The notes below the pieces were generated by a model, which was given only the letters and a program-made list of their open reading frames with translations, did no database searches and had not been told where the DNA came from. Shown here one piece after another: positions 38,588 through 39,828 of a stretch of DNA of 64,000 bases. Source of the DNA: Sinomonas gamaensis (GTDB lineage: Bacteria > Actinomycetota > Actinomycetes > Actinomycetales > Micrococcaceae); NCBI RefSeq assembly GCF_005876955.1, contig NZ_SSCL01000001.1, positions 186,001-250,000 on the forward strand, written 5' to 3'. A program made the translations under genes and the position numbers. Numbering within the stretch: the stretch's first letter is position 1; every line of letters begins with the position of its first letter.

Positions 38588-38668
38588 GCCGAGGTCGGGC
38601 CATGTGCCGCCGAGGTCGGGTGGTGTGGCGCCGAGGTCGGGCCGTGTGCCGCCGAGGTCGGGCCGCCG
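38588..38668 (+). repeat. Left 21-nt-period array, four units (plus orientation)
   Basis: GCCGAGGTCGGG occurs at 38588, 38609, 38630 and 38651, exactly 21 nt apart, with 9-nt linkers such as CCATGTGCC. The array fills the 82 bp between the converging metG and nuclease stop codons. Each core contains the short palindrome CCGA-GG-TCGG. Confidence 0.95.
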
Positions 38669-39634
38669 TTACGGCAGCTGCACAGCTGCGTGAGGTGTCC
38701 TCACGAAGGCCTTGACTTTCGCGCCCAACGTGATGGGGTCGTCGAGCTCCGGCCAATACACGTTGAGAACGCGCCAGCCGGCCGCAAGCAGCCGCGCCTC
38801 GCGCGCCTGCTGCTGAGCGACCTTCTCGTCTATCGGGAGGTAATCGAAGTACTTCCCGTAGCCGTGTACCTCGATGACAATCCGTCGGTTCGGCCACCCG
38901 AAATCCACTCGTTCGTGGCCTGTCGCGGTCTGGATCCAGAGTTGGAGTTCCGGTTCTGGGAGGTTCCACTCGGCGAGCAGCAGGCGAAATCGGCTCTCGG
39001 CTGGTGATTCGGAGCGACCGTCGGCCGCGAGCAGCGCCTCACGCACCTTGCGGATTCCTCGAGTCGCTTTTCCTTCACTGACGAGCCGTTGGAGAACCGC
39101 TTCGTCAGCGCCCCGGGATAGGCCGGAATCGGCGATGACTACGGCCTGCTCGAACGGTAAAAGCCGCGCACAATCGACGATTGTCCGTTCGAGCGAAGTC
39201 ACCCGGAGCGCGCCCACCAGACGGACGTCGCGAGCCGGGATTCGCTGATTATGCCGGACAACATCGCCGAGAGGTCCGCCGTCGCCGCGGCGGCTCGCGT
39301 GTGCCACATGCACCAACGGGCGTGCCCGCCACACCGACAGCCCCCAAATATGGGCTGCGGAGGTGTGGGTGTAGATATGTGATTGGCCTGACGATGCAGC
39401 ATCGTGCGCCTGGATTCTCACAAGCTCGGGGCTTGCACTGGTTCCGACGTTCGCGGCATAGACCCCACGCTCGTGCCGGACAAGTGAGCCGTCCTCGAGC
39501 AGATTCCGGATGGCTTTCCCGTCGACCCCTGCTGCTACGAGTTCCGACCGCAGGAACATCGGAGTGGCCGACGGCGATTGCTCGGCTAGTGCTTTGAGGG
39601 CTCGCGCTGACTTGGGATCCAGATTGAGGTGCAT
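38669..39634 (-). CDS. AbiEi-like N-terminal / DUF559-like endonuclease-fold protein
   Basis: 321 residues. The N-terminal winged-helix-like region (about 15-60: MFLRSELVAAGVDGKAIRNLLEDGSLVRHERGVYA style) resembles the AbiEi antitoxin N-terminal domain. The middle has THTSAAHIWGL and RVTSLERTIVDCARLL, typical of the same family. The C-terminal domain (about 215-315) resembles DUF559/Vsr-type nucleases: E in ESRFRLLL, RVDFGWPNRRIVIEVHGYGK with D-x8-E-x-H in place of the common D-x-E-x-D/K, and VLNVYWPELDD. AAGACT six bases before the ATG suggests leaderless translation. It is bracketed by inverted repeat arrays; no toxin partner gene is adjacent. The function is unproven. Confidence 0.75.
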   Translation of the reverse strand: MHLNLDPKSARALKALAEQSPSATPMFLRSELVAAGVDGKAIRNLLEDGSLVRHERGVYAANVGTSASPELVRIQAHDAASSGQSHIYTHTSAAHIWGLSVWRARPLVHVAHASRRGDGGPLGDVVRHNQRIPARDVRLVGALRVTSLERTIVDCARLLPFEQAVVIADSGLSRGADEAVLQRLVSEGKATRGIRKVREALLAADGRSESPAESRFRLLLAEWNLPEPELQLWIQTATGHERVDFGWPNRRIVIEVHGYGKYFDYLPIDEKVAQQQAREARLLAAGWRVLNVYWPELDDPITLGAKVKAFVRTPHAAVQLP

Positions 39635-39640
39635 GTCCTG

Positions 39641-39646
39641 AGTCTT
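39641..39646 (-). promoter_or_regulatory. -10 hexamer of the AbiEi/DUF559-like gene
   Basis: AAGACT on the minus strand, six bases before the ATG; same hexamer and spacing as at the ilv leader. Confidence 0.5.
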
Positions 39647-39732
39647 CAGCGGGAGCGCTGGCGGGGAGAGTCGTTCGCGTTCCTATGTGGATAACATCGG
39701 GAGGTCTGCTATGTGGGGGAGTAACTGCTTCG

Positions 39733-39828
39733 CCCGACCTCGGCGGCAGGGGGCCCGACCTCGGCGGCGGGGGGCCCGATGTCGGCGGCAGGGGGCCCGA
39801 CCTCGGCGTCACACGACCCGACCTCGGC
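39733..39828 (-). repeat. Right 21-nt-period array, five units (minus orientation)
   Basis: CCCGACCTCGGC, the exact reverse complement of the left-array core, occurs at 39733, 39754, 39796 and 39817, with a two-base variant at 39775, all 21 nt apart. It lies between the nuclease gene start and leuB and ends 51 bp before the leuB -10 hexamer. Confidence 0.95.

Follow-up and report, generated by a model that had tools for sequence, protein, structure and literature searches.

A nuclease gene between metG and leuB is bracketed by facing arrays of 21-nt repeats

The stretch of DNA analysed here (hereafter the window) comprises 64,000 nucleotides of the Sinomonas gamaensis genome, termed G000, and contains a gene for an AbiEi-type winged-helix/Vsr-like nuclease that lies between metG and leuB and has an array of short tandem units on either side. 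The features of the locus, in window coordinates, are as follows:

38588..38662, plus strand: array of four tandem units with core GCCGAGGTCGGG and a period of 21 nt, right behind the metG stop
38669..39634, minus strand: gene for a 321-aa AbiEi-type winged-helix/Vsr-like (DUF559-type) nuclease, the proposed trans factor of the arrays
38699..39022, minus strand: predicted Vsr/I-Bth0305I-like endonuclease domain, approximately residues 205-312 (alignment, structure model and Foldseek; limits set by eye)
39437..39634, minus strand: predicted AbiEi-type DNA-binding domain, residues 1-66 (Pfam, ortholog alignment, AlphaFold2 model and Foldseek)
39494..39520, minus strand: predicted recognition helix, residues 39-47 (ortholog alignment and structure model)
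39686..39694, minus strand: box TTATCCACA, which starts 60 nt before the nuclease start codon and is common to much of the family
39733..39828, minus strand: facing array of five tandem units with core GCCGAGGTCGGG and a 21-nt period, between the nuclease gene start and leuB

Eight exact copies of GCCGAGGTCGGG were found when both strands of the window were searched, and every one resides within the two arrays, with plus-strand starts at 38588, 38609, 38630 and 38651 and minus-strand starts at 39733, 39754, 39796 and 39817. The third unit of the minus-strand array, at 39775, reads GCCGACATCGGG and departs from the core by two changes. With up to two mismatches allowed, the window contains 67 matches, compared to 33.3 ± 5.2 in 100 shuffles (maximum 47). 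These searches confirmed what an initial sequence-only reading of the locus had described, namely two inverted arrays around the gene with these copy numbers, the 21-nt period, the two-change copy and linkers that are unlike between the two arrays.

A single base stands between the metG stop and the first array, the second array is 63 nt from leuB, and the two arrays are 1.07 kb apart. Pfam identifies methionyl-tRNA ligase domains in the product of metG and Iso_dh in that of leuB, which upholds both gene identities. The sequence-only reading had proposed comparing this junction in relatives lacking the gene; metG is followed by leuB in the gene-less Sinomonas genomes G010, G001 and G012, at a distance of about 120-250 bp measured from the last aligned metG residue; the comparison covers these three relatives because the stretches fetched from gene-less G005, G006, G007 and G013 have no detectable metG. 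Degraded single units persist at both array places of the G012 junction, and a search of the G010 junction for units found none.

The arrays are dispersed through the genome as facing pairs

A pattern of two consecutive units, with up to two mismatches, matches the G000 genome at 107 places (40 forward and 67 reverse), and a reversed control pattern gives 0 matches. On this dispersal a private cassette of this gene was rejected, and the suggestion that the arrays are the recognition ends of a self-contained unit is not supported. A three-unit pattern matches 7 of 245 genomes of the family, and 9 of 197 genomes match a two-unit pattern that tolerates dialects; the matching genomes are all Sinomonas in both cases. 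A wider draw yielded two matches at one mismatch in a genome of the same order but another family (G051).

To describe the layout of the arrays, 25 loci from G000, eight from G008 and 34 from G004, chosen among the matches listed, were inspected with genes called by a home-made gene finder, yielding 110 arrays. Thirty-one of these lie inside genes (13 sense and 18 antisense). Among the 79 intergenic arrays, 36 are no more than 30 nt from a stop codon in the sense orientation only and three in the antisense orientation only, six are sense and antisense at stops between converging genes, one is sense at a stop and also near a start, four are close to a start alone, and for 29 the nearest gene end is more than 30 nt away.

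Neighbouring arrays no more than 1.5 kb apart were found facing each other in 29 cases, pointing the same way in three and back-to-back in none. The gap between facing arrays ranges from 10 bp to 1.4 kb, and many arrays are unpaired. Three short elements picked for folding gave z-scores of -6.6, -7.9 and -7.3 relative to shuffles, forming two-tier hairpins in which cores are paired and linkers remain as internal loops. The earlier proposal of hairpins between arrays is supported by these three short elements, which lie elsewhere in the genomes, the two arrays of the window itself being 1.07 kb apart. At three loci (L048, L057 and L063), a separate hairpin-like sequence, e.g. ACGACGACGGGTGGC and its complement, is seen by eye between the facing arrays and is perhaps an old terminator.

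Within a species the core is alike across the genome. The 9-nt linkers recur between loci, unlike CRISPR spacers. Single units of 20 or 22 nt occur among the 21-nt arrays, and the sister systems described below use 19 nt, which argues against 21 nt, or two helical turns, as a phasing requirement. In the gene encoding a DUF4194 protein, in-frame arrays are present at both ends in G008 (L071) and at one end in G000 (L064).

Several other accounts of the arrays were considered and rejected. A conserved encoded peptide does not agree with arrays that stand behind stops in differing frames or with the 20- and 22-nt units, and replication-strand polarity does not agree with the G004 arrays, which occur on both strands in both halves of the genome. 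Matches in a viral contig and in a Clostridia bin were judged by eye to be unrelated repetitive coding sequence. In one comparison with an array-free site, no clean junction was found, and neither a target-site duplication nor a donor was identified.

Gene and arrays come and go together in Sinomonas

An ortholog of the nuclease gene (66-69% identity) is present in eight of 15 Sinomonas genomes, with one copy per genome and a position near leuB in all eight carriers; the other seven genomes contain paralogs only, with up to 40% identity. The gene adjoins metG in six of the eight carriers, and G004 and G009 have another gene on that side. In G011 (L125), leuB is set apart from the second array by an additional gene, so that this array stays with the nuclease gene and not with leuB.

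Two-unit matches, counted per genome with those beside the gene included, number 77 in G000, 29 in G009, 32 in G002, 144 in G004, 93 in G011, 70 in G014, 87 in G003 and 52 in G008. The gene-less genomes have three (G001), six each (G013, G005 and G012) or one each (G006, G007 and G010), in a search whose patterns derive from the motifs of gene-bearing genomes and would miss arrays of other dialects. A few 21-nt matches therefore persist without the ortholog in G001, G005, G012 and G013; one of the matches, found again in several genomes, resembles a conserved gene. The perfect split between presence of the gene and array count would arise by chance once in 6435 if the genomes were independent. 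In a tree of the leuB region, the gene-bearing species do not form one clade (p-AU 1.8e-77) and four to five changes are needed; gene and arrays change together in four of four independent pairs, for which a sign test alone gives p = 0.125, four being too few pairs for more, and this tree is built on one locus that adjoins the gene.

The sequence-only reading had named, as an outcome that would count against it, arrays scattered through the genome and unconnected with this gene family. Scattered they are, but they track the gene. Its suggestion of a phased binding array for the protein itself fares similarly: the arrays belong with the gene, which they flank in eight of eight carriers and with which they are jointly present, but helical phasing as a requirement is not supported. 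Because the arrays flank the gene and both come and go together, a recognition sequence of the protein itself is supported as the right direction. The dispersal of the arrays, together with their near absence from gene-less species, suggests a partnership of gene and repeats in a hitherto unnoticed mobile-repeat system.

The core is written in species dialects

Across the eight gene-bearing genomes, the core consists of GCCGARGT followed by a tetramer that varies by species, giving three dialects:

CGGG: G000, G008
CACC: G003, G014, G004, G009
GGGG: G011, G002

By eye, arrays are present on both sides of the gene in the same orientation in all eight. One of the seven other carriers shares the window core and six carry another, so that relatives with the gene and without GCCGAGGTCGGG arrays turned out to have arrays of another dialect rather than none. 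The small palindrome CCGA-N2-TCGG, which the sequence-only reading had noted in each core, is broken in the CACC and GGGG dialects and was rejected as the essential feature.

Orthologous places were compared by alignment of flanks. For 11 of the 25 array loci of G000, the orthologous place in G004 contains one or more arrays, written in the G004 dialect; in one of these comparisons (L051) the G000 array consists of two units, the second imperfect. The number of units in arrays varies between species. The dialect difference extends to arrays inside coding genes. An E2-type acyltransferase gene contains arrays in both linkers, between the lipoyl, E3-binding and catalytic domains, and the array in the first linker reads AEVG in G000 and AEVT in G004; the in-gene arrays of a LUD-domain protein behave alike.

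G002 contains two dialects, with both GATCGGG and GGTGGGG arrays (L128, L134-L137 and L078-L080). Its nuclease is placed beside the G011 nuclease (100/99), while its leuB region groups with that of gene-less G012 (100/100). As the place of the G002 nuclease in its tree conflicts with the leuB tree, the dialect seems, from these phylogenies, to follow the gene and not the species; the second dialect in G002 may be a relic.

The protein is predicted to join a variable DNA-binding domain to a Vsr-like nuclease fold

The N-terminal part of the protein matches Pfam AbiEi_4 (9.7e-8), and PADLOC assigns the protein to AbiEi (5e-13); an NCBIfam search gave nothing above cut-off. An AlphaFold2 model built from 42 family sequences has a pLDDT of 89.8 and a pTM of 0.87. 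Foldseek relates the model to the AbiEi antitoxin 6y8q (7e-6) and Rv2827c (1zel, 7e-4), as well as to Vsr with DNA (1cw0, 0.006) and the homing endonuclease I-Bth0305I (3r3p, 0.019, TM 0.70 on target); the E-values of the Vsr-type matches are weak (0.006-0.02) at a probability of 1.00. Among 42 aligned family members, E209, E213 and D244 are invariant and E255 is nearly so. The protein is thus confidently modelled as an AbiEi-type DNA-binding domain combined with a Vsr/homing-endonuclease fold. In the label first given to the gene, AbiEi-like/DUF559-like, the AbiEi half is upheld by Pfam, PADLOC and fold, but the Pfam search matched neither the DUF559 model nor a transposase, so that "DUF559-type" rests on the fold, the earlier reading and the annotation of one distant relative.

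The fastest-evolving part of the protein among orthologs is the DNA-binding domain: alignment columns 1-66 have a mean identity of 0.49, compared to 0.75-0.77 elsewhere. Ten columns separate all three dialects, and four of these fall within the nine-residue helix 39-47 (hypergeometric 6e-5, uncorrected for helix variability or relatedness).

Sister genes in the genus have arrays of their own

By eye and by shared 9-mers, many paralogs of the gene bear their own motifs with other cores on both flanks, and the best period was 19 nt in 12 of 30 paralog loci scanned. A family tree was built from 50 of 51 extracted members, the 51 being all homolog matches down to an E-value of 3.5e-32 except one short match, plus three weaker ones. 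Two paralog motifs were followed across the 15 genomes. Arrays of ACCGTCC number 34 in G008, 22 in G010, 12 in G006, four in G007, three in G000 and one in G012, with none in nine genomes, and the matching paralog clade has members in G008, G010, G006 and G007. G000 has a broken copy of this paralog (contig C6, positions 70689-71627, with matches in two frames), beside which one of its three ACCGTCC matches lies; the single G012 match is a stray without gene or broken copy. All four G007 matches flank the gene itself and none is dispersed. Arrays had been expected in G006, G007 and G010 only, and so the richest genome, G008, was unforeseen and G007 proved poor. Arrays of CAGGCC number seven in G002, four in G012 and two each in G014, G003 and G011, with none in ten genomes, and the corresponding gene clade has members in exactly these five, with one to five matches per genome located away from the gene. 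Both motifs are, in short, limited to genomes with the matching gene or a broken copy of it, bar one stray match.

The layout of a 19-nt family was examined at 20 loci (16 in G008 and four in G010) comprising 41 arrays or single cores. Neighbours face each other in 19 cases, point the same way in two and stand back-to-back in none. Exactly two units face two at six of the 20 loci, and the others have between one and six per side. Near stop codons, at a distance of up to 60 nt, sense-only cases number 20 and antisense-only cases four. None of the 41 lies inside a gene, compared to 31 of 110 in the 21-nt family (p = 2e-5), and this absence of 19-nt and presence of 21-nt arrays within genes is as expected if insertions that disrupt the reading frame are selected against.

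Flank-sharing repeats are commoner at homologs in other genera than at control genes

Homologs with E-values of at most 0.001 were found in 144 of 197 genomes of the class, with up to 38% identity. Flanks were compared for the 29 best homologs from other genera, one of which (L227) had a faulty gene end, and for controls consisting of Sinomonas genes without adjacent 21-nt arrays. Sharing of 9-mers across the two flanks in excess of shuffles (p ≤ 0.02) was seen for 16 of the 29 homologs and 17 of 43 Sinomonas paralogs, compared to four of 163 control genes; when repeats within a flank were counted as well, the numbers at the same threshold were 16/29, 29/43 and 26/163, respectively. Flank arrays are visible by eye at homolog loci L204, L209, L215 and L231, and one long inverted repeat at L216, L217, L220 and L208. 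Partial relatives were found in six plasmid records and one phage record, none covering more than 80% of the length. In open-access literature screened by title and start of abstract, nothing links this protein family with repeats.

In L216 and L220, the same two neighbour genes flank the nuclease in opposite orientation (by eye), a picture that an inversion of the gene between its inverted repeats would produce.

A proposed sequence-specific nuclease and its dependent repeats

We propose that the gene encodes a chromosomal sequence-specific nuclease and that the arrays are its dependent, non-autonomous repeats, maintained and spread in trans, a reading that we consider probable. In the order of events that we infer, the winged-helix domain would recognise the 12-nt core, and the basic element would be a hairpin-capable inverted pair in which at least two tandem units face at least two reversed units. 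By cleaving or nicking DNA, the nuclease would maintain and spread such elements in trans, repair would copy them elsewhere or convert other arrays, and slippage would lengthen arrays. Insertions would persist where harm is small, that is, just behind stop codons and in the linkers or ends of coding genes, those inside genes being tolerable because 21 is a multiple of three. A change in the recognition helix would be followed by a change of the array core genome-wide, giving rise to dialects, and loss of the gene by decay of the arrays. The protein may copy elements or may convert existing ones. Taken across the Actinomycetes, AbiEi-Vsr (DUF559-type) nucleases may form an unrecognised repeat-maintaining class, in which each clade writes and keeps its own dispersed, hairpin-forming arrays, several such pairs coexist in one genome, and a change in the recognition helix rewrites all arrays, even those inside central metabolic proteins; for this broader claim we see even chances.

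Possible, though we are inclined to doubt it, is a homing-type drive in which the nuclease cuts core-like sites and gene conversion copies units, making the arrays by-products of cutting rather than elements copied as units. The resemblance of the fold to the Vsr-type I-Bth0305I (TM 0.70 on target, E 0.019) and the genome-wide likeness of the core within a species both agree with such a drive. However, there is one ortholog per genome, near one gene, an intron or intein setting was not seen, and the 19-nt elements share a layout, two units facing two with an equal gap at six of 20 loci, that resembles a copied unit.

Another account, which we find improbable, treats the arrays as operators, with the protein an AbiEi-like regulator whose nuclease fold is inactive and the dispersed arrays its regulon. 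Phased tandem sites and an AbiEi-type N-terminal domain agree with it, as do arrays on each gene's own flanks, which an autoregulator would have, but arrays at gene ends stand behind stops in the sense orientation (36 versus three antisense only) and not at promoters, coding genes contain 31 of the 110, hairpins form from facing pairs on folding, and the acidic residues E209, E213 and D244 are invariant (E255 nearly so) in 42 family members.

Lower still we would place the reading in which the arrays terminate transcription in both directions or stabilise 3' ends, a role under selection in some members of the genus, with the nuclease gene as an incidental neighbour. Arrays right behind stops, between converging genes and sometimes around a separate hairpin would suit this role, which leaves unexplained the joint loss in four of four independent pairs, the two further families with their own genes, the dialect switching and the arrays inside genes. 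Neutral minisatellites that grow by slippage and share only ancestry with the gene seem very unlikely: unit number does differ between species, but one core recurs at dozens of dispersed loci, back-to-back pairs are absent, presence alternates on the tree, two further gene/array families repeat the pattern, and cross-flank repeats occur at 16 of 29 homologs versus four of 163 controls.

Relation to known repeat systems

The nearest precedent for the proposed nuclease-repeat partnership is the RAYT/REPIN system. There, the chromosomal RAYT gene is mostly single-copy with repeats beside it, the repeats are spread through the genome as inverted pairs able to form hairpins, with a flavour of their own for each gene, their abundance correlates with gene presence, and co-evolution of protein and repeat is supposed (PMC8266576, PMC8049555, PMC3116915). 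Measured against this description, the Sinomonas repeats are alike in bordering the gene, being dispersed, following gene presence in abundance and forming facing inverted pairs able to form hairpins. In contrast to a REPtron, the Sinomonas protein is predicted to combine an AbiEi winged helix with a Vsr-like nuclease instead of being a Y1 (HUH) transposase (TnpA-REP), the core has no GTAG or CGTC tag in 186 G000 and 71 G008 units, the repeats are tandem arrays with a 19- or 21-nt period and not single palindromes, and the 21-nt family also occurs in frame inside genes. The parsimonious reading is that the Sinomonas system works like a REPtron built from an unrelated nuclease, without being a member of the REPtrons.

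Other known systems share single features. As in AbiE type IV toxin-antitoxin systems, the N-terminal part matches AbiEi_4, PADLOC AbiEi and 6y8q; however, Pfam shows the neighbours to be a methionyl-tRNA ligase and an isopropylmalate-dehydrogenase-type gene and not an AbiEii toxin, and the Sinomonas system adds a Vsr-like nuclease domain and dispersed repeats. The C-terminal fold resembles Vsr and I-Bth0305I (1cw0, 1vsr and 3r3p), with acidic residues kept, but is fused to a winged helix, and the Foldseek E-values are weak. DNA uptake sequences are 12-nt words with species dialects that form inverted pairs behind genes, and the 12-nt Sinomonas core, with its dialects and its inverted pairs behind genes, is similar in each respect; they were rejected as an explanation, as the 64-kb window has all eight of its exact copies within the two arrays and no scattered singles. 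As no known family fits, we place the system outside the known kinds, although its mode of working has a precedent in the REPtron.

If the proposed reading is right, the REPIN idea of a domesticated nuclease living with a population of small non-autonomous repeats would have a second origin, in an unrelated enzyme, and a widespread actinobacterial protein family for which no repeat role was found stated would gain one. The dialects would constitute a natural experiment on how a DNA-binding domain changes jointly with its sites, of which there are dozens. In the in-frame arrays, a repeat is seen to reshape the linkers of central proteins, as in both linkers of the lipoyl/E3-binding/acyltransferase E2 protein. 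Finally, the candidate target of many such genes can be read from their flanks, which makes the proposal directly testable.

A DnaA-box-like sequence precedes many of the nuclease genes

The box TTATCCACA at 39686..39694 fits the DnaA-box consensus. Among 51 Sinomonas genes of the family, 45 have a DnaA-box-like TTNTCCACA or GTNTCCACA in the 320 nt upstream, and in 27 of the 51 it starts 59-62 nt before the chosen start codon. A box of this type was also found upstream of ten of 29 class homologs, compared to none of the 505 control genes for which 350 nt were searched. The position of these boxes upstream of the nuclease genes suggests that the nuclease may be under replication-linked control.
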